This document shows, piece after piece, positions 1,370 through 16,696 of a stretch of 16,696 nt of DNA. Numbering within the stretch: position 1 is the stretch's first letter; every line of letters starts with the position of its first letter. Source of the stretch: Leucobacter sp. GTDB lineage: Bacteria > Actinomycetota > Actinomycetes > Actinomycetales > Microbacteriaceae. The stretch is from assembly GCA_017990305.1 (NCBI GenBank), contig JAGNOB010000005.1:1-16696 (forward strand). Reading direction: 5' to 3'. Both the position numbers and the translations under genes were made by a program. Below the pieces are notes generated by a model. It did no database searches and had not been told where the DNA came from. It saw only the letters and a list, made by a program, of their open reading frames with translations.

Positions 1370-3967
1370 ATGCGCGCAAAAGAGTTGGACAAGCTCGTCG
1401 AGCATCTCCAGCGCAGGGACACAGTGCGCCTCGTTGCTGGCCGCGAATACGGTGCGACGAGCTTGCTCAACGAACTCGAAGCGAAGCTGGTCACGCTCGG
1501 TTTCTCCGTTGTCCGCATTGCTGGCGACCCTTCGGCAACCGAGGTGCGATTCTCTGCGATCCGCCAGGCACTGCTGGCTTCCGATCGGCTCCCGCCTCAG
1601 GCTTCTCAAGACGAAGTGAGGGACATTCTTGCGGTCGAGCTCAGTCGCACCCCCAATACCGTGCTCTTAATCGACGACTCCGAGCTCCTCGACATTCCCT
1701 CAGCGCAAGTACTCGCTCCGCTGTTCGACCGAACGAAGCTCGCTGCGGTGTTCGTCAGCGTTCCGTTCACACAGCTCAGTACCGAACAGCGAGTGGTCTC
1801 TCGAATACTGCGAGCAAACGCACGGGTCGATCTCAATGCACTCACGTTCGAACAGGTAGGGGTGCTCGCCGAGTCGCTTCTTGAGGCCCCAGTGAGCCCT
1901 GCGATCACGTCTGAGGTGTTCTCCATGTCGTCAGGCATCACTGGCGTAGCCTCTGAGATATTGCGCACTGCACAGGCGACCGGCAAGATTCGACGGGACG
2001 GAAGCCGCTGGACGCTCTCCGAGGGAAACCTGTGGAACCCCCACCTCGAGGAAAGCATCGAGCGCCTCCTTGCCCCGATCGAAAATACGGCGCTGCGACT
2101 GTTGCACGCGCTCGCGTTCGTGGGGAGCCTCACCGCGGAAGATCTCCACGACTTCGATCCCAGCTCCGCCGAGAGCCTGACTCGAAGCGGCCTCATCACT
2201 GCGTTCAAAGACCCGCAGGGAGTGTCGAGGGTGTCTCCGCGCCCCGCATTGATCGCAGACTATTTCCGGCAGCGCCCGTTCGATCTCCTGAGCATGGCGG
2301 CAACGAACCTGTTGGATGGCTTGATTGCGAGCCGCGGCGACGGGGCGGCCCGGGTCGCCCGTCAGGAGCTCAAGCTCGACGCACACGTGCGGCACTCGGA
2401 CACAGCGGAGACCCACAACGCCGGCCTCTCCCGATTTCTTCGGGAAGAGAATGAGCAGCAACTCGCTATCGCGTCGCGAGAGTGGCGTCGTCACCATGAC
2501 ACGCCACGGGCGCTCATCTATCTCGAGGCACTCCTGCAGTCAGGAAGGTATGTATCGACCGCCGTGGGTGTGCTCGAACGCACGCCCTCTGACGACGCCA
2601 GCGGCCCCGAGCTGCTCCAGCTCGCGCTCCACGAGCACATCCTCCAACGGGAAGCCTCCGCGCCGCAAACGCTTCACTCGCTGACGTTGCGGCGCCATCA
2701 CCCTGCCTACGCCGTCGCTCTCGACGCGTACGAAATCTATCTGAGGTTTTGTGATGAGGGCAGGGTCGCGAGCGTCGAAAAATGGCTGGAGGATCCCGGC
2801 GATGATCCGGTCGGCTTCTGCAAGACGATTGCTGAATACATCAGGGTGATGTCTGGCGAAACGCTCGAGCAGGTCGTTCCGAGCCCGCCGCTTGATGCGC
2901 CGCCGTTTCAGCACGTTATCGTCGAGCAGAATCGCCTTGTGCTGTTTATTAGGCAGGCAGTGAGCAATGACGAGCTTGAAGATCTTCTGTCTGACCCGCT
3001 CCAATTGGGTCCTGGGGAGGACCCGGTACCCTTCCTCGTGAACTCCTACGTGCGCTCACAGCTGCTCCTGGGGTTGGGCAGGGTCACTGAGGCCCGCCGC
3101 ACACTCAGCCAGGCGCTCTCAATCGGGGACTTCGATCTTCGCTACGCGGTGCTCTACGCAGCTATGCTCCGCTGGTCGGCGTTCTTGCATTTCCGAGAAG
3201 GTCGCGCAGATATCGCGGAGTCGCTACTCCGCGAGAGTCAGGATTACGCTACCGTTCGGGGCCCGATGCCGGGTATGCGGCCGGAATTCGGTGACGCACT
3301 CGGCGTGCTCCTCAGCGGCGACCGAGCCGCCGCAGGCGCCGCTTTCCTAGCCGAGGCGAACACGTGCTACGAGCAGTCATTCTTTGACGCCTCGTGGACG
3401 TCCGCGCGCTTCGCTTTCCAGCTCGATCCCGGCGAGGAAGCGCTCGAGATCATCGAACGGCTCAGCCGGGTGCCGTCTCAGTCATGGATTACGCCACTTC
3501 TCGAGTTCGCGCGATCAGCGATCCGGCAAGATCCGAGCATTTCGATCTACGTCTCGCGCTTCCGAACCCTTCCCGAACTCGTTGCCGCGGCAGATTTTCT
3601 CGACGACATCGGATTCGCGCACCGGGCACGTGGAACAGAGATCTCCCCGGAGTTCGCGCAGGCTTTGGCTGAGGCGCGTGACACGCTGCACATCTCCCGC
3701 GAGCCGCTCAGCCGGGTGACTTTTCGGGAGACCCCGCTACCCGTCGACAATCTGACCCCGCGGGAGCGCGAAATTGCGCCACTCACCGCAACACTGAGTA
3801 ATCGGGAGATTGCGAACCGCCTTACGCTCAGCATTCGAACCGTTGAGAACCACATAGCGCGCTCGATGAAAAAACTTGGCCTCACCTCGCGGGCCGACCT
3901 CAGTGCTGCTCTCGCGGCCTCTGCAAAAGCAGGTGGCGGGGCCCAGCAGTTTCGGGCACAGAACTGA
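1370..3967 (+). CDS. Large LuxR-family transcriptional regulator with degenerate ATPase domain
   Basis: About 865 residues. The C-terminus is a LuxR/GerE helix-turn-helix: LTPREREIAPL, then LSNREIANRLTLSIRTVENH and IARSMKKLGL, about residues 795-845. The N-terminus resembles the AAA/STAND ATPase of LAL (MalT-like) regulators. The Walker B-like run is VLLIDDSELLD (Asp102-Asp103). The Walker A region reads VAGREYGATSLL (residues 22-33), with Ala where the catalytic Lys belongs and glycines missing. The middle (about residues 280-790) is helical and probably TPR-like, as in this class. The frame is open back to a GTG at 1205, but conserved sequence begins around 1370. ATG1358 is an in-frame alternative four codons upstream. 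A weak promoter-like TATAGG at 1283-1288 fits a 5' leader of 60-75 bases. The target genes and ligand are unknown. It is a solitary regulator with no partner on its strand. Confidence 0.85.
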   Translation: MRAKELDKLVEHLQRRDTVRLVAGREYGATSLLNELEAKLVTLGFSVVRIAGDPSATEVRFSAIRQALLASDRLPPQASQDEVRDILAVELSRTPNTVLLIDDSELLDIPSAQVLAPLFDRTKLAAVFVSVPFTQLSTEQRVVSRILRANARVDLNALTFEQVGVLAESLLEAPVSPAITSEVFSMSSGITGVASEILRTAQATGKIRRDGSRWTLSEGNLWNPHLEESIERLLAPIENTALRLLHALAFVGSLTAEDLHDFDPSSAESLTRSGLITAFKDPQGVSRVSPRPALIADYFRQRPFDLLSMAATNLLDGLIASRGDGAARVARQELKLDAHVRHSDTAETHNAGLSRFLREENEQQLAIASREWRRHHDTPRALIYLEALLQSGRYVSTAVGVLERTPSDDASGPELLQLALHEHILQREASAPQTLHSLTLRRHHPAYAVALDAYEIYLRFCDEGRVASVEKWLEDPGDDPVGFCKTIAEYIRVMSGETLEQVVPSPPLDAPPFQHVIVEQNRLVLFIRQAVSNDELEDLLSDPLQLGPGEDPVPFLVNSYVRSQLLLGLGRVTEARRTLSQALSIGDFDLRYAVLYAAMLRWSAFLHFREGRADIAESLLRESQDYATVRGPMPGMRPEFGDALGVLLSGDRAAAGAAFLAEANTCYEQSFFDASWTSARFAFQLDPGEEALEIIERLSRVPSQSWITPLLEFARSAIRQDPSISIYVSRFRTLPELVAAADFLDDIGFAHRARGTEISPEFAQALAEARDTLHISREPLSRVTFRETPLPVDNLTPREREIAPLTATLSNREIANRLTLSIRTVENHIARSMKKLGLTSRADLSAALAASAKAGGGAQQFRAQN

Positions 3968-9281: not shown

Positions 9282-10805
9282 ATGTCACCCACCGCGGAGC
9301 ACACTCCCCGAGTCAAGCGCTATCGCGAAGCGCCTTCAGTGCTCGCCGTCGTGCGCGATCCACGGCTGCTGCTCCGCGAGGCCCTCGCTGGCCTCGTCGT
9401 CGCTCTCGCCCTCATCCCCGAGGCAATCTCGTTCTCGATCATCGCGGGCGTCGACCCCAACGTTGGGTTGTTCTCCTCATTCATCATGGCGGTGTCGATC
9501 GCCTTCCTCGGGGGCAGACCCGCGATGATCACCGCGGCGACCGGTGCGGTGGCCTTGGTGATCGCACCGGTGATGCGGGAACACGGCATGGACTATTTCA
9601 TCGCAACGGTGCTTCTCGCCGGCGTTCTGCAGATTCTGCTTGCCGTGCTCGGCGTAGCGAAGCTCATGCGTTTCATTCCGCGAAGCGTGATGGTCGGGTT
9701 CGTCAATGCGCTCGCGATTCTCGTCTTCAGCGCCCAGCTTCCCGAACTCATCGGGGTACCGTGGCTCGTCTACCCCCTCGTCGCTGCCGGAATTCTCGTC
9801 ATCCTGGTCATGCCGAAGATCACGAAGGCTGTGCCAGCGCCCCTCGTGTCCGTCATAGCGGTCACGGCTGCGGCTGTGGTGTTCTCGATCACCGTGCCGA
9901 CGGTCGGCGACAAGGGCGAGCTACCGAGCAGCCTGCCCGAATTCTTCCTACCGAACGTACCGCTGACGTCGGAAACCCTCATGATCATTGGCCCCTTCGC
10001 CCTTGGCATGGCGCTCGTCGGGCTCCTCGAGTCGCTGATGACAGCAAAGCTCGTCGATGAAATCACCGACACCCACTCGAACAAGACACGAGAGAGCTGG
10101 GCACAGGGCGTCGCCAACCTCCTCTCCGGCTTCTTCGGCGGGATGGGCGGCTGCGCAGTCGTCGGCCAGACAATGATCAACGTGAAGGTTTCGGGGGCGC
10201 GCACGCGCGTCTCAACGTTCCTCGCGGGCGCATTCTTGCTGCTCCTGATCCTCGTGCTCGGCGACCTCGTCGCAATCATCCCGATGGCCGCACTCGTCGC
10301 CGTCATGATCATGGTGTCGGTGGCGACGTTCGACTGGCATTCGATCTCCCCTGCCACCCTCAGGCGGCTGCCGAAGAGCGAAACGTTCGTGATGCTCGCG
10401 ACCGTCGCCGGAGTTCTTGCAACGCAGAACCTCGCCGTCGGCGTGATCATCGGCGTCGTCGTTGCCTCAGTCATGTTCGTGCGTCGCGTCGCCCACTTCG
10501 TGTCGGTGGATCGACGTATTGCGGGCGACGGCGAGCACTCCATCGCCCGCTACACCGTAACCGGCGAACTGTTCTTTGCGTCAAGCAACGACCTCACGAC
10601 GATGTTCGCGTACAGCGCCGATCCCGCGCGCATCGAGATCGATATGACCCACTCCCACATTTGGGATGCCTCCTCAGTTGCATCGCTCGACGCGATCGTC
10701 ACGAAGTACGCCCGACTCGGAAAAACCGTTGAGATCACCGGAATGAACGACGCGACACGTCAGTTCCACGGCAGGCTTTCTGGCGAGCTCAGCCCCGACG
10801 CGTGA
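9282..10805 (+). CDS. SulP-family inorganic anion transporter with C-terminal STAS domain
   Basis: 507 residues. The start is ATG at 9282, preceded by GAAGGAA at six bases. The N-terminal two thirds is a polytopic SulP (SLC26-like) transporter. It includes GLVVALALIPEAISFSIIAG in helix 1 and LGGRPAMITAATGAVALV, the conserved stretch around the anion site. GFFGGMGGCAVVGQTMINVKVSGA follows near residue 290. The C-terminus (about 415-500) is a STAS domain: GELFFASSNDLTTMF, then IEIDMTHSHIWDASSVASLDAIVTKY. It acts in the cytoplasmic membrane as an uptake or exchange protein for sulfate, bicarbonate or another small anion; the sequence does not decide which. It lacks sulfate-assimilation or carbonic-anhydrase neighbours. 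The only downstream gene on its strand is the small basic protein at 10901. Confidence 0.93.
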   Translation: MSPTAEHTPRVKRYREAPSVLAVVRDPRLLLREALAGLVVALALIPEAISFSIIAGVDPNVGLFSSFIMAVSIAFLGGRPAMITAATGAVALVIAPVMREHGMDYFIATVLLAGVLQILLAVLGVAKLMRFIPRSVMVGFVNALAILVFSAQLPELIGVPWLVYPLVAAGILVILVMPKITKAVPAPLVSVIAVTAAAVVFSITVPTVGDKGELPSSLPEFFLPNVPLTSETLMIIGPFALGMALVGLLESLMTAKLVDEITDTHSNKTRESWAQGVANLLSGFFGGMGGCAVVGQTMINVKVSGARTRVSTFLAGAFLLLLILVLGDLVAIIPMAALVAVMIMVSVATFDWHSISPATLRRLPKSETFVMLATVAGVLATQNLAVGVIIGVVVASVMFVRRVAHFVSVDRRIAGDGEHSIARYTVTGELFFASSNDLTTMFAYSADPARIEIDMTHSHIWDASSVASLDAIVTKYARLGKTVEITGMNDATRQFHGRLSGELSPDA

Positions 10806-10900: not shown

Positions 10901-11020
10901 ATGTCCAGTAAAGATCGCGGCCAGAAGGCTACGAAGAAACCCGCGGCGCAGACGCTGAAAGAAAAGCGTGCGGCAAAGCGGAGCAAGACTGAGTCACAGA
11001 GTTCACAGCTGAACAAGTAA
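10901..11020 (+). CDS. Small basic protein of 39 residues, function unknown
   Basis: ATG at 10901 to TAA at 11018-11020, with the strongest Shine-Dalgarno of the window (GGAAGGAG at 10888-10895) directly upstream. The protein begins MSSKDRGQKATKKPAAQTLK and ends with SQLNK. It is very rich in Lys, Arg, Ala, Ser and Gln, with no hydrophobic core, so it is probably unstructured and nucleic-acid or ribosome associated; that is inference. It reminds me of short conserved Lys/Ala-rich proteins of actinobacteria, but I cannot name a family. A TAGGGT at 10859-10864 could be its own -10 box. It is followed seven bases later by a strong hairpin terminator, which also supports its being a real gene. 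Confidence 0.75.
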   Translation: MSSKDRGQKATKKPAAQTLKEKRAAKRSKTESQSSQLNK

Positions 11021-11026
11021 TCGGTA

Positions 11027-11061: not shown

Positions 11062-12042
11062 TCAACAGCCACTTACCACGGCGACGACGTAGGGCAGATT
11101 CACGGCCGCGATGACGGCAGCGAGCATAAACGCGTACGCCCCAACGGCCGCGGCCAGCGCCGCGCTCGCCGCCGGTCTCGGCACCCCAACAAGGTGGCGG
11201 ATGCGTTCTGAACCCGCGGCATGCAGCATCGCGTGCGCCGGGACACCAGCAGCTGAGGCCGGTACCTCGGGCTGGCCAAGCTTGAGGAGGGCGCCCGCTA
11301 GAGCGGTCGTGCCAGCTGCCTGTTTTGCAGCCTGGTCAGCTGCGATCTCAAGGTAGTGCGGCACCGATTCACGCACCGCGCGCACGAGCGGGATCCAGCG
11401 GAAATACCGCGTCGTCCCATTCAGGATCGCCATGATGAGGTGGTGTCGCTGGTCGAGGTGCGCCTGCTCGTGCGCCAGCACTGCCACTAGCTCGCCGGGC
11501 GACAGCGTCGAGAGCGTTCCGCGCGAGAGCACGATGCCACCGTGCTCGTGCGGCAACGAGAATGCCTGTAGCCCGATATCTGGCGTGATGCGCGCTTGGC
11601 TGCCGAGCACGGAGATCCGGTCGCTCCCGGCACGCAGTTCCGAGCCGAACGCGGCCTGGGACTTGCGGAGGAGCACGAACTCTCGGGCAAGCCCAGCGAG
11701 TACCGCGACAACGCCGACCACGGGCAACGCGAGTGGCACGACCGCTGGAATCCCGAGTGACAGGGCGCTCTCGCCAAACGGGCTCGCGGCGCTCAGACAT
11801 CTGCCACAGACCTCGGCGGCCTGCTGCGGAAGCCAGGCGGGCCCAGAGCTCATCCAGGCCACAACGGGGCCGAGCGCGACGAGGGCGGCGATCCAGAGCA
11901 GCGCTGTCACCGTCAGCGCAACAGCTGCGATCCGGGGAATGATCGCGAGGGTGGGCGCAGCTCGCCGCAGCAGCCACGGCCCCCAGAACGCGGCCGCGAC
12001 AAGCACACTGCTGAGCAGCAGTGTGAGCAGCGTCGTGGTCAC
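11062..12042 (-). CDS. M56-family (BlaR1-like) membrane metallopeptidase
   Basis: 326 residues. The GTG start at 12042 overlaps the BlaI stop by GTGA. Hydrophobic segments lie at about 4-24, 36-62 and 98-122 and near the C-terminus (298-322). The zinc protease motif is AVLAHEQAHLDQRHH, with HExxH at residues 191-195, placed in the loop before the last helix as in BlaR1. There is no penicillin-binding sensor domain after the last helix; the protein ends in VVAVVSGC. In the family this protease inactivates the partner BlaI repressor when a signal is sensed. The loop between helices 2 and 3, extracytoplasmic by analogy with BlaR1, contains CGRC (residues 79-82, bases 11797-11808). That raises the possibility of redox or metal sensing. 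It is the last gene of a three-gene operon. Confidence 0.9.
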   Translation of the reverse strand: MTTTLLTLLLSSVLVAAAFWGPWLLRRAAPTLAIIPRIAAVALTVTALLWIAALVALGPVVAWMSSGPAWLPQQAAEVCGRCLSAASPFGESALSLGIPAVVPLALPVVGVVAVLAGLAREFVLLRKSQAAFGSELRAGSDRISVLGSQARITPDIGLQAFSLPHEHGGIVLSRGTLSTLSPGELVAVLAHEQAHLDQRHHLIMAILNGTTRYFRWIPLVRAVRESVPHYLEIAADQAAKQAAGTTALAGALLKLGQPEVPASAAGVPAHAMLHAAGSERIRHLVGVPRPAASAALAAAVGAYAFMLAAVIAAVNLPYVVAVVSGC

Positions 12043-12440
12043 TGCGGTTCGTTCCCGCCGAGCAGGTGTTGGCGGAGGAGCCGGAGATCTTCCTCAGGCA
12101 TGCTGTTCACGAAGTGCAGGATAGACGCCTCGCGATCCCCCGAAGCCTCGAGCGCGTGCTCCATGATGCTCGTTGCGTGCGCTTCTCGCGTCACGGATGC
12201 AGCGTAGAGGGTGGTGTGGCCGTCCTTACGGGTACAGACGAGGTGCTTCTTGCGGAGGTTTCCGAGCACCGTCGCAATCGTCGTGTACGCGGGGTTCGAG
12301 GGGAGCCTGTCAATGAGGTCTCGCACGGTGAAGCCGCCGCCTTCCCAGAGCAGATCCATTACCTGGGTTTCGAGCGCGCCAAGGCGGGCGGGCTCGCCAG
12401 CCGACGTGCCGCCGTGCGTGTGTCTCTGATCACTTGTCAT
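12039..12440 (-). CDS. BlaI/MecI/CopY-family transcriptional repressor
   Basis: 133 residues from the ATG at 12440 (MTSDQRHTHGG...), whose ATGA overlaps the stop of the upstream membrane protein; GGAG lies about nine bases before it. The winged-helix core is typical of the family: LGALETQVMDLLWEGGGFTVRDLIDRL, then AYTTIATVLGNLRKKHLVCTRKDGHTTLYAA, followed by a dimerisation helix region ending LRLLRQHL. Family members bind as dimers to TACTA-type inverted repeats and are inactivated by the cognate M56 protease encoded just downstream. Matching inverted repeats occur at 13024-13055 and 15860-15891, so it likely represses its own operon, the divergent DsbA-like gene and the distant DsbA-CcdA pair. 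The longer frame reaching 12587 lies inside the upstream gene and is rejected. Confidence 0.93.
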   Translation of the reverse strand: MTSDQRHTHGGTSAGEPARLGALETQVMDLLWEGGGFTVRDLIDRLPSNPAYTTIATVLGNLRKKHLVCTRKDGHTTLYAASVTREAHATSIMEHALEASGDREASILHFVNSMPEEDLRLLRQHLLGGNEPQ

Positions 12441-13000
12441 CGGTTCGTCTCCATCTCTGCCGCCTTCGCGGTCGGGCGCTTTGTCGGCACGGGGCAGGCC
12501 ACCTGACCGCTCAATCGCCACACGAGTGCGAGCCCTGTGAGAATCAGTGCGGCAATTGCGAGCACAGGCTGCAGCGGGGCAAACCACGTGATCGCACCAG
12601 AGTAGCCGAGCGCGATGAGCGCGATCTTGTTGCAGACAGGACAGCCGACAGCGAACCAGGTGAGCACGCCGCCGGCGATGCCCATCCGGGTGGTGCGGCG
12701 CTCGCTGGGCTCCTCTTCAGGGCCTGCGACCGGCGCCGCGCCGGACTTCACATAGGTCGCGGTGAGGAGACCCACGCCGATCGCGGTGAGCGCCCAGACA
12801 GGGTAGTTCCACCACACGGTGTCGATATCGCGCGCGAACCACGGGTTCGGGATGAGCACGGTGACGACACCAACGAGTAGTGCGAACCCGGCAGCGACGA
12901 GCGCGGCGATGAGGTACTGCCGCGAGCTCCAGCCCCGCAGCGCTCGCCCCGCGAAGACAAGACGCTGCCGCGCTGCCGCGAGGCTCCATGGCCGAATCAT
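12437..13000 (-). CDS. Integral membrane protein with CPVC motif, function unknown
   Basis: 187 residues from the ATG at 13000, preceded by GAGGAAAGGGG. About four hydrophobic segments are seen (29-51, 66-84, 106-130, 143-163). The most distinctive stretch is AVGCPVCNKIALIALGYSG, where C120-P-V-C123 lies at the start of a membrane segment; a further Cys sits at 169. A CxxC of this kind at a membrane edge suits thiol-disulfide exchange or metal (copper, mercury) binding, but I cannot name a family. It heads the operon with BlaI and M56 (ATGA overlap with blaI) and is transcribed divergently from a DsbA-like gene. Its promoter region carries the double BlaI-type operator. Context suggests a role in envelope thiol redox or metal handling; that is inference. 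Confidence 0.82.
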   Translation of the reverse strand: MIRPWSLAAARQRLVFAGRALRGWSSRQYLIAALVAAGFALLVGVVTVLIPNPWFARDIDTVWWNYPVWALTAIGVGLLTATYVKSGAAPVAGPEEEPSERRTTRMGIAGGVLTWFAVGCPVCNKIALIALGYSGAITWFAPLQPVLAIAALILTGLALVWRLSGQVACPVPTKRPTAKAAEMETNR

Positions 13001-13023
13001 CGCAGCCCCTTTCCTCAGACTTA

Positions 13024-13038
13024 ACTATGCTCGATAGT
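13024..13038. promoter_or_regulatory. BlaI-type operator, site 1 of the divergent promoter
   Basis: ACTATGCTCGATAGT: arms ACTAT/ATAGT around GCTCG, with a flanking A and T extending the dyad to 13023-13039. It lies in the 103-bp region between the membrane protein gene (minus) and the DsbA-like gene (plus). It also lies 23 bases upstream of the minus-strand ATG, so a bound repressor would cover that promoter. The half-sites match the TACTA-type used by the BlaI family. Confidence 0.75.
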
Positions 13039-13040
13039 TT

Positions 13041-13055
13041 ACTATTCACGGTAGT
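13041..13055. promoter_or_regulatory. BlaI-type operator, site 2 of the divergent promoter
   Basis: ACTATTCACGGTAGT, extended to TTTACTA/TAGTAAA arms at 13038-13044 and 13052-13058 (perfect 7-bp arms, 7-base centre). Its centre is 17 bp from that of site 1. TACTAT at 13040-13045 is a good plus-strand -10 box for the DsbA-like gene at 13104, so the operator overlaps the promoter core. Confidence 0.75.
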
Positions 13056-13103
13056 AAATGCTCCCTGTGAGTCGCCACCGAACTCCAGCGAAAGGACCCG
13101 CGA

Positions 13104-13817
13104 GTGCTCTCATCCTCTCCGCGACCACCGCGCGTGAGCCTCGCCGCGCCGCTCGCGATCTTTGCGGTCATCGCCGTCATTATCGGCGCCACCTTCCTGG
13201 CGCAGCGCGGCTGGCAAGCGGACGCTGCGCCAGGCCCCGTGGACGCGGAAGTGTGGCGCGCAGAGCGACAGGCCGACATCGACAGGTTCGCTGTTGGCGA
13301 CCGGCGCGCGCCCGTCGAACTGGTTGTGTACTCCGATTACCAGTGCCCGTTCTGCGCACACTGGGACCGCGATACCCTGCCCAACCTGGTACCGTACGTC
13401 GACGCTGGGCAGCTCCGCATCGTCTGGCGCAACGCAAACCTGTCCGGCGACGCATCACGGCTCGGTTCCCAGGCAGCGTACGCCGCTGCCCTCCAGGGCG
13501 CGCTACTCCCCTTCCACAACGCGCTCGCACAGCACGACCGCGGGGCTGCAGCTGCAGACCTCTCCGAGGACGCCCTCATTGCCCTCGCAGACGAACTCGA
13601 ACTCGACACCGCCAGGTTCCTCGCAGATATGACGTCGCCCGAGGCTCAACGGACGGTGTCCGAGAACGAGGCTGCAGCGCAGCGAGCCGGGGTTGTGAGC
13701 ACGCCCTCCTTCCACTTCAATGACGTGTTCGTATCAGGGCTGAAGCCCTCGGAGGTGTTCATCGACCAGCTCGAGGCCGCTCTCAGCGAAACCGACCCCT
13801 TGAGCACCACCGAATAG
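13104..13817 (+). CDS. Membrane-anchored DsbA-like thiol-disulfide oxidoreductase (copy 1)
   Basis: 237 residues from GTG at 13104, with AAAGGA seven bases upstream. One N-terminal membrane anchor (about 12-33) without a lipobox places the catalytic domain outside the cell membrane. The thioredoxin-fold DsbA-like domain (Thioredoxin_4 type) starts near 66. It reads APVELVVYSDYQCPFCAHWDRDTLP, with active-site C81-P-F-C84 and the cis-Pro region VSTPSFHF near 208. It should exchange disulfides in secreted or membrane proteins. It is paralogous to the protein encoded at 15136-15840 (both share VVYSDYQCPFCA, a W, then DTLP). It is followed 53 bases later by a thioredoxin gene, and divergent from the CPVC protein-BlaI-M56 operon. 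Two BlaI-type sites overlap its promoter, so repression by that BlaI is expected. Confidence 0.9.
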   Translation: MLSSSPRPPRVSLAAPLAIFAVIAVIIGATFLAQRGWQADAAPGPVDAEVWRAERQADIDRFAVGDRRAPVELVVYSDYQCPFCAHWDRDTLPNLVPYVDAGQLRIVWRNANLSGDASRLGSQAAYAAALQGALLPFHNALAQHDRGAAAADLSEDALIALADELELDTARFLADMTSPEAQRTVSENEAAAQRAGVVSTPSFHFNDVFVSGLKPSEVFIDQLEAALSETDPLSTTE

Positions 13818-13846
13818 CAGACAGCGGCTGATCCCAGCCGTACGAT
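13818..13846 (+). promoter_or_regulatory. Possible internal promoter for thioredoxin with a dyad in the spacer
   Basis: CAGACA (13818-13823) and TACGAT (13841-13846) are separated by 17 bases. The spacer is almost filled by the hairpin-forming dyad CGGCTG-ATCC-CAGCCG (13825-13840). It could be a promoter with an operator in its spacer, or simply a small hairpin between co-transcribed genes. It has no T-run, so it is not a terminator. Confidence 0.3.
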
Positions 13847-13870
13847 GGACGAGAAGAGAGGACGCCGCGG

Positions 13871-14293
13871 GTGAGACTCAGCCGCGCACACACTATGAGC
13901 ACAGTAGAGATCACGAAGGACAACCTCGAAGAGACGATCACGTCGGGCGGTATCGTGGTGCTCGACTTCTGGGCCGCCTGGTGCGGTCCGTGCCGCTCCT
14001 TCGCCCCCGTCTTCGAGAAGTCTTCAGAGACACACGAGGACATCGTCTTCGGAAAGATCGACACCGAGGCGGAGCAGGAGCTCGCCGGGATGTTCGGCAT
14101 CACCTCGATCCCGACAATCATGGCGTTCCGCGACGGCATCAACGTGTTCTCGCAGGCAGGCGCACTTCCAGCACCAACGCTTGAGCAGCTTGTGGAGGCC
14201 GTGCGCGGGCTCGACATGGATGAGGTGCGCTCTCAGCTCGCCAAGGAGGCCACCGCGGAGGGCGACGCCCAGGCGGAGACGCCCCAGGCCTAA
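13871..14293 (+). CDS. Thioredoxin
   Basis: 140 residues from the GTG at 13871, which has GAGAGGA about nine bases upstream. The ATG at 13895 gives 132 residues (MSTVEITKDN..., the usual thioredoxin beginning) but lacks a clear ribosome binding site. The thioredoxin fold is complete: VVLDFWAAWCGPCRSFAPVFEK with the CGPC active site, then DTEAEQELAGMFGITSIPTIMAFRDG with the cis-Pro in SIPT. It has an acidic Ala/Glu/Gln-rich tail after residue 120. With no signal peptide it should act in the cytoplasm, where it could supply reductant to the CcdA-type transporter next door. It is downstream of a DsbA-like gene on the same strand. Its stop overlaps the convergent ccdA-like stop by three bases. 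The symbol is left blank because several thioredoxins usually exist per genome. Confidence 0.93.
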   Translation: MRLSRAHTMSTVEITKDNLEETITSGGIVVLDFWAAWCGPCRSFAPVFEKSSETHEDIVFGKIDTEAEQELAGMFGITSIPTIMAFRDGINVFSQAGALPAPTLEQLVEAVRGLDMDEVRSQLAKEATAEGDAQAETPQA

Positions 14294-15132
14294 GCTTCCT
14301 GTCGCTGTGCGGCCTTGCGCCGCGCAGCGATCCAGATCCACAGCGCGACACCCGCGAGCACGACGATGCCGAGTACATCGAACACGGGGCTCGAGAACAC
14401 TGCACCCTGCTCCTGCACCCACGCCTGCACCGAGGTTGGTACGAGCGACGGCATCGCGACAAGACCATTGGTGAACCAGAACAGCAGACCGACGCCGATA
14501 ATCAGCAGGCCAGTGACAAGCGAGGTGGTGTGGAGCTGCCTCCCGAAGACCGTGATGGCTCGGCCGCGAAGGATCCGCTGCCCCCGAGTGCCGAGCTTCT
14601 CCCAGAGCGCAGCAATGATCACGAGCGGCACCACCATACCCGCTCCGTACACGGCCAGGAGTGCGCCGGCCATAAGACTCGAGCCTTGCCCCATCGCGAG
14701 GGTGAGCACCGCGCCAAGGATCGGGCCAGCACAGAACCCTGCCACACCGCTCACCGCCCCCAGGAGCAACGTGCGCACGAGCCCCTTGCGTGACGAGGCC
14801 TTTTGCTGCAGCGCCGCGGTGCCGGGGATCATTCGCGAGACGTCAAAGCCGTAACCGAGCACCTGCAGCACACCGAGCACGACGAGCACGAGCGAGGTGA
14901 CCGCAATCACCAAGCCCCGCTGCTCCATAAAGAGCGTGCCGAGCGCACCGATGCCAAGGCCGAACGGCACGAGCGTGAGCACGAGTCCGAGATAGAACAC
15001 TCCACCGTGCACGAGCAGCCTGAGCTTCGCGCCGACTGTCGAAGCGAAGAACGCGGGCAGCAGCAGCGCACTGCACGGGCTCAGGAGCGCAAGCACGCCG
15101 CCGAGAAACGCGGTGACAAATCCGATTTCCAT
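14290..15132 (-). CDS. CcdA/DsbD-type transmembrane thiol-electron transporter
   Basis: 280 residues from ATG at 15132, three bases after the stop of the DsbA-like gene. It is polytopic with roughly six to seven helices. The two membrane cysteines of the family are seen in LLSPCSALLLPAFF (helix 1) and VAGFCAGPILGAVLTLAMG (about residue 133). In the family, these shuttle electrons from cytoplasmic thioredoxin to extracytoplasmic thiol proteins, for cytochrome c maturation or disulfide reduction. No ResB/ResC or cytochrome genes lie in the window. Coupling to a DsbA-like gene and a convergent thioredoxin gene makes envelope thiol-disulfide exchange the likelier job here. The C-terminal helix (about 255-272) ends in a basic tail. 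Confidence 0.9.
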   Translation of the reverse strand: MEIGFVTAFLGGVLALLSPCSALLLPAFFASTVGAKLRLLVHGGVFYLGLVLTLVPFGLGIGALGTLFMEQRGLVIAVTSLVLVVLGVLQVLGYGFDVSRMIPGTAALQQKASSRKGLVRTLLLGAVSGVAGFCAGPILGAVLTLAMGQGSSLMAGALLAVYGAGMVVPLVIIAALWEKLGTRGQRILRGRAITVFGRQLHTTSLVTGLLIIGVGLLFWFTNGLVAMPSLVPTSVQAWVQEQGAVFSSPVFDVLGIVVLAGVALWIWIAARRKAAQRQEA

Positions 15133-15135
15133 CAG

Positions 15136-15840
15136 CTAGCGGGCCTCGGCAAGCGCGCGTTCGAAGGTCTCGACGAATACGCTCTCGGGCTGCGCACCCA
15201 CGATGGGCTCGCCGCCGAGCACGAAGGTCGGGGTGCCAGAAACGCCGAGCTCTTGACCACTTCGGGCATACTGCTGCACGAGTTCGAGGGTCTCTGCCGA
15301 TGTGAGATCTGCCGCGAATTCATCACTGTCGAGCCCAAGGCTTCCCGCAAGTGCAATGAGGGAGTCCGCTGTGAGTTGTTCGGGGGGAAGGTGCTCACCG
15401 TCAGGGAAAAGCGCGTCGTGGAATTCCCAGAATTTACCTTGCTTGCCTGCAGCGTGGGCAGCGAGCGCGCCACGCTCGGAATCTGCGCCGTACTGGTTCA
15501 CGTCGCGCCATTCGATGCGCAGATCGCCCGCGTCGGCGTACTCCATCATCGTGGGGAGCGTATCGTTCGACCATTTCGCGCAGAACGGGCACTGGTAGTC
15601 CGAGTAGACGACGAGCGCGACGGGAGCGTCGACGGGGCCAGCTGTCTGCACGTCCCCTGCTTCACGGGTTTCCACGAAGGTGAGGTCGGGCTGTTGCGGC
15701 TGCTGCGCAGCGGCGTTTGCCTGACCACCTCCTCCTCCCTTCACCTGCATCACCACGATTGTGATGAGCAGGCCTGCGATGACGATGATCCCAATCGGCA
15801 CGAGCCACGAGCGGAAACGTTGGGCAGCTGTTTGCGTCAT
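15136..15840 (-). CDS. Membrane-anchored DsbA-like thiol-disulfide oxidoreductase (copy 2)
   Basis: 234 residues from ATG at 15840, preceded by GAGGAGAAGA. The longer frame to 15909 runs through the operator and is rejected. A membrane anchor lies at about 12-32, then a Gly/Gln/Ala linker (35-50). The DsbA-like domain begins near 70 with APVALVVYSDYQCPFCAKWSNDTLP (C84-P-F-C87), and the cis-Pro region is GVSGTPTFVLGG. It is expected to face outside the membrane and to oxidise or isomerise thiols; the downstream CcdA-type protein could keep it reduced. It is a paralogue of the protein at 13104-13817, and the two promoter regions are also related. The 38-bp double operator immediately upstream predicts control by the BlaI encoded at 12039-12440. 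Confidence 0.92.
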   Translation of the reverse strand: MTQTAAQRFRSWLVPIGIIVIAGLLITIVVMQVKGGGGGQANAAAQQPQQPDLTFVETREAGDVQTAGPVDAPVALVVYSDYQCPFCAKWSNDTLPTMMEYADAGDLRIEWRDVNQYGADSERGALAAHAAGKQGKFWEFHDALFPDGEHLPPEQLTADSLIALAGSLGLDSDEFAADLTSAETLELVQQYARSGQELGVSGTPTFVLGGEPIVGAQPESVFVETFERALAEAR

Positions 15841-15856
15841 TCTTCTCCTCAGACTG

Positions 15857-15894
15857 ATTACTATGCCCGATAGTAAACTATCGGGCATAGTAAT
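15857..15894. promoter_or_regulatory. 38-bp palindrome made of two BlaI-type operators
   Basis: Perfect 18-bp arms: ATTACTATGCCCGATAGT (15857-15874) and its exact complement at 15877-15894, separated by AA. Each arm contains a complete smaller dyad, ACTATGCCCGATAGT (15860-15874) and ACTATCGGGCATAGT (15877-15891), centres 17 bp apart. On the minus strand TACTAT (15875 down to 15870) is a plausible -10 box, so two repressor dimers would cover the promoter of the DsbA-CcdA pair. Confidence 0.85.
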
Positions 15895-15915
15895 TGCTGC
15901 GAGTCTCATGCACGA

Positions 15916-16696
15916 CTAGCCCGCGACGGCCACCTCACTCGGAGCGTGCGCAAGCTGCCGGCGGCGCCTGCGCGCAAGCAGCCGCGTGCCAATGAGTCCG
16001 TGACGCGGGCTGAAGAGGTAGGTGAGCGCAAATGCGGTGCCCTGCGCGAGCACGACCATGCCGCCAGAGGCAGTGTCAAGGTAATAGCTCAAATACAGAC
16101 CGGCGACAGCACATACGGCAGAGATCGCTGGCGCGATGACGAGCATCCGCGAGAACCTGTCCGTGAGCAGGTAGGCGGTTGCCCCCGGGATGATGAGCAT
16201 CGCGACGACAAGCACCACGCCAACAGCCTGCAGCGCAACCACAGACGTCAGCGCGAGCAGCCCAAGCAACAGCGCTCCGAGCATGCGCGGGTTCAACCCG
16301 ATGGCGTGCGCGTGCGTCGGGTCAAAGGCAAAGAGCGTAAAGTCCCTGCGCTTCGCAACGAGCACAACCAGCGTCACCGCCCCAAGGATGGCGATCTGCA
16401 GCAGGTCGGCCTTCGACACCCCAAGGAGGTTCCCAAAAATAATGTGGTTCAGGTCAGTCTGAGACGGAGTCACCGAGATCAGTACGAGCCCGAGCGCGAA
16501 CAGCGTGGTGAACACGATCCCGATCGCCGCATCCTCCTTCACGCGGCTCGTGTCTCGCACCGCGCCAATGAGCGCAACCGCAAGAAAGCCGAACACGACC
16601 GCGCCGAGCGCGAAGGGCGCCCCGACAATGTAGGCAAGCACGACACCAGGGAGCACCGCATGCGAAACGGCGTCACCCATGAGCGACCAGCCAATG
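15916..16696 (-). CDS. Metal ABC transporter permease (Mn/Zn/Fe type), N-terminus outside window
   Basis: The frame is open through the right edge, where the residues before the Met at 16680 (IGWSL) continue the family motif, so the first helix is missing. The visible part is a typical ABC-3 (MntB/ZnuB/TroC-like) permease: SLMGDAVSHAVLPGVVLAYIVG, SRVKEDAAIGIVFTTLFALGLVLIS, then HAHAIGLNP and VGVVLVVAMLIIPGATAYLL. At least seven hydrophobic segments follow one another, with a basic tail (ARRRRRQL). It forms the membrane channel for uptake of a divalent metal together with an ATPase and a binding protein, presumably encoded beyond the edge. It ends 75 bases before the DsbA-like ATG on the same strand, so read-through into that operon is possible. 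The metal cannot be told from the permease alone. Confidence 0.92.
   Translation of the reverse strand, partial: IGWSLMGDAVSHAVLPGVVLAYIVGAPFALGAVVFGFLAVALIGAVRDTSRVKEDAAIGIVFTTLFALGLVLISVTPSQTDLNHIIFGNLLGVSKADLLQIAILGAVTLVVLVAKRRDFTLFAFDPTHAHAIGLNPRMLGALLLGLLALTSVVALQAVGVVLVVAMLIIPGATAYLLTDRFSRMLVIAPAISAVCAVAGLYLSYYLDTASGGMVVLAQGTAFALTYLFSPRHGLIGTRLLARRRRRQLAHAPSEVAVAG

Follow-up and report, generated by a model that had tools for sequence, protein, structure and literature searches.

A BlaI/M56 pair accompanies disulfide-exchange genes in Leucobacter and other actinobacteria: the M56 protein may be an unrecognised thiol-stress sensor

Little is understood about the sensing of extracytoplasmic thiol-disulfide stress in Gram-positive bacteria. 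In the bla and mec systems of staphylococci, the repressor and protease genes lie divergent from their target, with dyad operators, and the pairs BlaI-BlaR1 and MecI-MecR1 control beta-lactamase or PBP2a. The Staphylococcus aureus BlaI is cut just before Phe102, the P1' residue of its scissile bond (PMC9834060, excerpt). The mycobacterial BlaI Rv1846c has reported targets that include blaC, ftsQ and, in the ATP-synthase operon, Rv1303 (PMC12565901, excerpt), and the DsbA-like/CcdA-like operon cg0026-cg0025 of Corynebacterium glutamicum is controlled by OsnR (PMC8524982, excerpt). Here, we describe a locus of Leucobacter sp. in which a BlaI-type repressor and an M56-type protease stand next to a set of disulfide-exchange genes. 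It lies in a stretch of 16,696 nucleotides (hereafter the window), which is one whole contig (JAGNOB010000005.1) of a 2.42 Mb assembly that is 74.7% complete. As far as sequence comparison goes, a BlaI/M56-controlled thiol regulon that holds beyond the window appears well supported, and its M56 protein may be a thiol-stress sensor that has gone unrecognised.

The locus resembles the staphylococcal systems in several ways. Its repressor is of the same Pfam family and has the phenylalanine of the scissile bond at the aligned position; its protease carries HExxH and ExxxD motifs, with BlaR1 and an M48 protease sharing the top rank by structure; and the repressor and protease genes lie side by side, with a target gene that diverges from them and has dyad operators. 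By contrast, its M56 protein lacks the penicillin sensor and has a loop CxxC and a terminal cysteine instead, and its putative targets are DsbA, CcdA, thioredoxin and a membrane protein with a CPVC motif (the CPVC protein). The mycobacterial BlaI is also actinobacterial, and the best PDB match of the window BlaI is 2g9w (profile search, 6.7e-28), which we take to be Rv1846c; on the protease side, the 29 non-module M56 proteins of our sample, outside which Rv1845c falls, differ from the module protein in having no CxxC. The C. glutamicum operon is likewise an actinobacterial DsbA-like and CcdA-like operon under redox-related transcription control, but its regulator is OsnR, and BlaI is named nowhere in the main text of PMC8524982. 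Among the matches listed in PMC full text, a search outside which subscription papers and preprints fall, none reports a BlaI/M56 pair controlling dsbA-ccdA; PMC12421883 was discarded, its sole "BlaI" match being the author name Blair.

All seven genes proposed by an initial annotation of the window were recovered at about the same coordinates from family scores and reading frames. On the minus strand, the CPVC, BlaI and M56 genes overlap and make up one unit, from which DsbA1 and thioredoxin diverge, while DsbA2-CcdA, running from 15840 down to 14290, converges on DsbA1-thioredoxin. The features of the module are as follows.

11062..12042, minus strand: M56-type membrane zinc protease, 326 aa; HExxH at residues 191-195, ExxxD at 232-236
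11797..11808, minus strand: M56 CxxC codons (Cys79, Cys82), within the loop that joins helices 36-64 and 101-139
11065..11067, minus strand: M56 C-terminal Cys326 codon, three residues past the last helix (291-323)
12039..12440, minus strand: BlaI-type repressor, 133 aa, PF03965; ATG at 12440 (longest frame from 12587)
12111..12113, minus strand: BlaI Phe110 codon; the residue aligns with Phe102, at P1' of the bond cut in S. aureus BlaI
12437..13000, minus strand: CPVC membrane protein, 187 aa; C120, C123, C169; without Pfam entry
13024..13038, no strand: operator, first of the tandem pair in the divergent promoter region
13041..13055, no strand: operator, second of the tandem pair in the divergent promoter region
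13104..13817, plus strand: DsbA-like protein 1, CPFC; PF13462, 79.9 bits against 23.2; N-terminal membrane anchor by eye
13895..14293, plus strand: thioredoxin of cytoplasmic type, WCGPC; TIGR01068, 102.8 bits against 96.8; no signal peptide by eye
14290..15132, minus strand: CcdA-type transmembrane electron carrier; PF02683, 40.8 bits against 27.1; Cys20, Cys134
15136..15840, minus strand: DsbA-like protein 2, CPFC, adjoining CcdA; PF13462, 81.8 bits against 23.2 (scored on the longer frame 15136-15909); N-terminal anchor by eye
15860..15874, no strand: operator, first of the pair before DsbA2-CcdA, pattern match
15877..15891, no strand: operator, second of the pair before DsbA2-CcdA, pattern match

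A DsbA2 start at 15909 was considered and rejected because it would place the operators inside the gene; the start is thus likely at 15840.

The operators (ACTAT-N5-RTAGT) make two tandem pairs spaced 17 bp centre to centre. With up to two mismatches allowed, the window holds 10 matches, 8 of which are the four operator sites read on both strands; shuffled windows gave 3.6 matches on average, and 10 was reached in only 1 of 200 shuffles. A genome scan, as proposed at the outset, found exact sites nowhere but in the two module pairs of the 2.42 Mb (74.7% complete) assembly. The initial annotation had placed one operator type before both DsbA genes and the repressor operon; this is borne out, except that there are two operator places and not three, since the pair of the repressor operon also serves the divergent DsbA1. 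With a slightly longer pattern, the whole assembly shows four single one-mismatch sites outside the module, three of them inside apparent genes; when up to two mismatches are allowed, the two strands give 122 and 123 matches, so weaker sites are indistinguishable from chance. Binding of these sites by a different BlaI paralogue had been named as a refuting outcome, and it is partly addressed: one BlaI passes the PF03965 cut-off in the whole, 74.7% complete, assembly.

Species genomes were scanned with the CPVC alignment, which gave 154 confirmed relatives, from which 80 loci were taken; five others from a family search bring the set to 85 annotated actinobacterial loci. For operator and neighbourhood counts, the duplicates L042 (of L049) and L044 (of L099) were dropped, leaving 83; L042 is still counted for M56 CxxC and tail cysteines, for the BlaI phenylalanine, and for DsbA, CcdA and CPVC cysteines. 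The operator is present in 64 of the 69 loci with BlaI versus 1 of the 14 without, and 136 of 148 sites stand at module gene starts (from 300 bp ahead of the longest-frame start to 250 bp past it). No site is present in 40 further 16-kb regions taken from 14 genomes that carry the module. The order [CcdA-DsbA] operator [CPVC-BlaI-M56] is common to many actinobacterial genera, including Brevibacterium, Nesterenkonia, Dietzia, Rhodococcus, Isoptericola, Microbacterium, Corynebacterium and Amycolatopsis, which answers positively whether the cluster is conserved in related genera. Leucobacter shows variants: DsbA2-CcdA can be split off behind a second DsbA, as in the window, and in L062 all module genes run in one direction. 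The distribution is patchy, since in the family sample 6 of 199 genomes, our own among them, carry the CPVC gene. Across the class, the tandem pair was found in 4 of 393 genomes, namely our own, two with the full module and one with a BlaI-M56 locus without CPVC.

We also searched 45 genomes from the 85-locus set for tandem pairs, and 34 have them. Taking one pair per genome in 30 of these 34, DsbA and CcdA are found within 1.5 kb in 29 of the 30 loci; the exception, Brevibacterium casei (L136), has an extra pair near a CsoR-like gene, with a neighbour that looks AraC-like by eye, its other pair being at the module. In two draft genomes (L159, L198), a pair precedes DsbA-CcdA on a contig other than that of the module. 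No CPVC, BlaI or M56 match lies within 1.5 kb of the L159 pair, and the L198 pair, near a contig end, has fragmentary CPVC matches upstream. Operator-BlaI co-occurrence, DsbA and CcdA at the pairs and the recurring order support the original proposal that the BlaI/M56 pair is dedicated to an extracytoplasmic thiol system.

The module could also be a passenger, with DsbA-CcdA and CPVC-BlaI-M56 co-travelling on mobile DNA and the shared operator attesting to common descent only. It does seem mobile: five of the 83 loci (L082, L083, L084, L087 and L091, from isolates of different genera and one metagenome-assembled genome) share one near-identical cassette, whose 97-99% identity across genera makes a recent horizontal transfer likely. 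Its hosts are Cellulosimicrobium, Microlunatus, a Microbacterium metagenome-assembled genome and Haematomicrobium, and across 7.5 kb it is found in Thermocrispum. Matches to the CPVC protein also occur in 50 plasmid records, and in 20 of these the match spans 80% or more of the protein. Yet spacers vary, with 100 distinct sequences among the 148 sites, both DsbA units carry sites in the two-DsbA Leucobacter loci L043, L047, L048 and L049, and the L159 and L198 pairs (the latter with the fragmentary CPVC matches noted above) precede DsbA-CcdA away from the module, all of which makes mere co-travelling quite improbable. In the cassette (L082 and its relatives), another pair precedes a small protein without Pfam match, sortase-like by eye only; in L048, the same small protein diverges from DsbA2 across a pair.

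A further component of the regulon is the M56 protein. It scores above the cut-off of PF01435 (M48; 37.1 bits versus 20.3) and below that of PF05569 (M56; 19.9 versus 31), and in structural comparison BlaR1 comes first, tied with an M48 protease. H191, E192, H195, E232 and D236, the gluzincin HExxH and ExxxD residues, are invariant in 42 M56 sequences. Four long helices are predicted, and the CxxC loop corresponds to the extracellular loop of BlaR1. CxxC is found in 64 of 65 module M56 proteins, window included, and is invariant in two M56 alignments; 62 of the 63 complete ones (L094 and L119, cut by contig ends, were left out) have a cysteine beyond the last helix, among their 6 C-terminal residues. 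As a control, we used 30 loci of the best-scoring M56 matches, a non-random choice from 67 matching genomes of 98; with L165 removed as belonging to the module, 0 of the 29 other actinobacterial proteins have CxxC and 1 of 29 has a cysteine within the last 5 residues. The module M56 appears to be a BlaR1-like protein in which conserved cysteines of its own take the place of the penicillin sensor, which is new here, and its reading as a thiol sensor is likely.

BlaI/M56 pairs are known for induction by cell-wall antibiotics or peptidoglycan fragments, as in BlaR1/MecR1, and the thiol genes could then repair envelope damage. A serine hydrolase gene near the module in five Dietzia loci (L072 at 1952-3706, L074, L092, L101 and L119; PF00144 in L072, the sole one scanned) would fit such an inducer. 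Against it, the M56 protein ends at residue 326, three residues past its last predicted helix, and the Pfam scan finds no penicillin-sensor domain; the operators of the five Dietzia loci stand only before module genes; and no beta-lactamase family is present among the 15 window proteins scanned with Pfam, as the initial annotation had noted for both beta-lactamase and sensor. We hold this inducer to be the least probable of the explanations weighed here. Three of these loci (L072, L074, L101) also have a second DsbA-CcdA pair without operator.

As to the repressor, its winged-helix Penicillinase_R domain (PF03965) scores 79.4 bits for a cut-off of 22.6, and in profile alignment Phe110 falls on the conserved phenylalanine of BlaI in 1sd4 and MecI in 1okr. 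This residue is kept in 64 of 65 BlaI with M56 and in 2 of 6 without. The latter (L096, L103, L107, L113, L120 and L125) are beside CPVC, with M56 not detected; the four lacking the phenylalanine look like close relatives, so that a link between Phe110 retention and the presence of M56 is suggestive only.

On the effector side, the initial statement that every non-regulatory gene handles thiols is sustained by homology for four genes and is presumptive for the CPVC protein. Both DsbA-like proteins exceed the PF13462 and PF01323 cut-offs, which bears out the call of two DsbA-like proteins, their membrane anchors being judged by eye. Their active sites are CPFC in 67 of 86 and CPYC in 14 of 86, and at least 70 of the 86 have a threonine just before the cis-proline, as is typical of reductases and isomerases. 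CcdA keeps Cys20 in 71 of 73 sequences and Cys134 in 73 of 73; the presence of CcdA and thioredoxin suggests an electron flow that points outwards. All 86 CPVC sequences, that of the window among them, keep the cysteines. The CPVC protein matches no Pfam family, and a structural search gave no informative fold match; it has 2,873 homologues, and the 120 listed are without Pfam domain.

From gene order, operators, co-occurrence, conserved residues and predicted structure, we consider it probable that the module is a self-contained membrane-to-DNA BlaI/M56 switch, which senses envelope thiols and induces the thiol genes. BlaI would bind the tandem operators and repress CPVC-BlaI-M56, DsbA1-Trx and DsbA2-CcdA. 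The M56 protein would be a BlaR1-like receptor whose predicted topology exposes three cysteines outside, the loop CxxC and the C-terminal one. A change in their state (a disulfide formed or broken, or a thiol modified), as the putative signal, would alter the cytoplasmic zinc protease, which may then cleave BlaI at the conserved Phe110 bond; cut BlaI would leave the operators and the module would be induced. Electrons would pass in a reductive or repair line from cytoplasmic thioredoxin through CcdA across the membrane to the DsbA-like proteins outside, and the CPVC protein may be one more thiol partner in the membrane. If true, this would be a sensor made of two proteins and simple in its genetics, whose three cysteines are named, whose operators are defined and whose regulon is small, present in many actinobacterial genera and partly on plasmids; the BlaR1 scaffold would be a receptor with an exchangeable input part, and the CPVC family would gain its first functional context.

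The neighbourhood suggests what the signal could be. Of the 83 loci, 25 have rhodanese-containing, CoA-disulfide-reductase-like, DsrE or TauE genes, versus 0 of 40 control regions, and this association points to reactive sulfur as a candidate signal; none of these families is found among the 15 window proteins scanned. Neither these sulfur genes nor the M56 cysteines figured in the initial annotation. A PQQ_2-type propeller protein, often beside CcdA, is present in 44 of 83 loci versus 0 of 40 (for instance L091:4988-6244 and L048:4749-5957), a frequent and unexplained partner of the module. Arthrobacter and Streptomyces plasmids show the same company, and plasmid L195 is without it. A bolder version, which we put forward tentatively and regard as possible, though doubtful, would place the M56 protein in a new class, that of redox receptors built on a membrane protease. 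Its three extracytoplasmic cysteines would form a switch that responds to reactive sulfur species (persulfide, polysulfide, sulfite) or to disulfide stress on the outer face of the membrane, and that signals by cutting BlaI; the receptor would have spread in Actinobacteria along with the CPVC protein, as a membrane thiol carrier so far undescribed, and often with genes for persulfide handling.

The same circuit could respond instead to a soft metal (copper, mercury, arsenic) on the CxxC and tail cysteines, the thiol enzymes being a metal-stress response. Besides forming a disulfide, three conserved cysteines could coordinate a metal, and on two plasmids, L196 of Rubrobacter and L194 of Pseudonocardia, the CPVC gene is near P-type ATPases for cations or heavy metals. 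The module BlaI is also of the same repressor superfamily as the CopY copper repressors, but its distant score to the NCBIfam CopY_TcrY equivalog (30.6) is below the cut-off (121.95) and it has a single cysteine. The enrichment near the module is for sulfur genes; metal genes were uncounted, so that sulfur versus metal is no fair contest. On balance, we judge a metal signal unlikely and keep the thiol-sensing switch as our reading.

Other genes of the window surround the module. Just downstream of the M56 gene and on the opposite strand, a SulP-family anion transporter with a STAS domain (9282-10805) has no operator ahead of it in the window pattern scan. Between the two lies a small Lys-rich frame of about 40 residues (10902-11021; MSSKDRGQKATKK...). 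At the other end, the frame of a metal ABC permease of zinc/manganese type (15916-16680) ends beside the DsbA2 operators, the contig ending just beyond the permease, and a family A DNA polymerase match (113-1141) is located near the contig edge.

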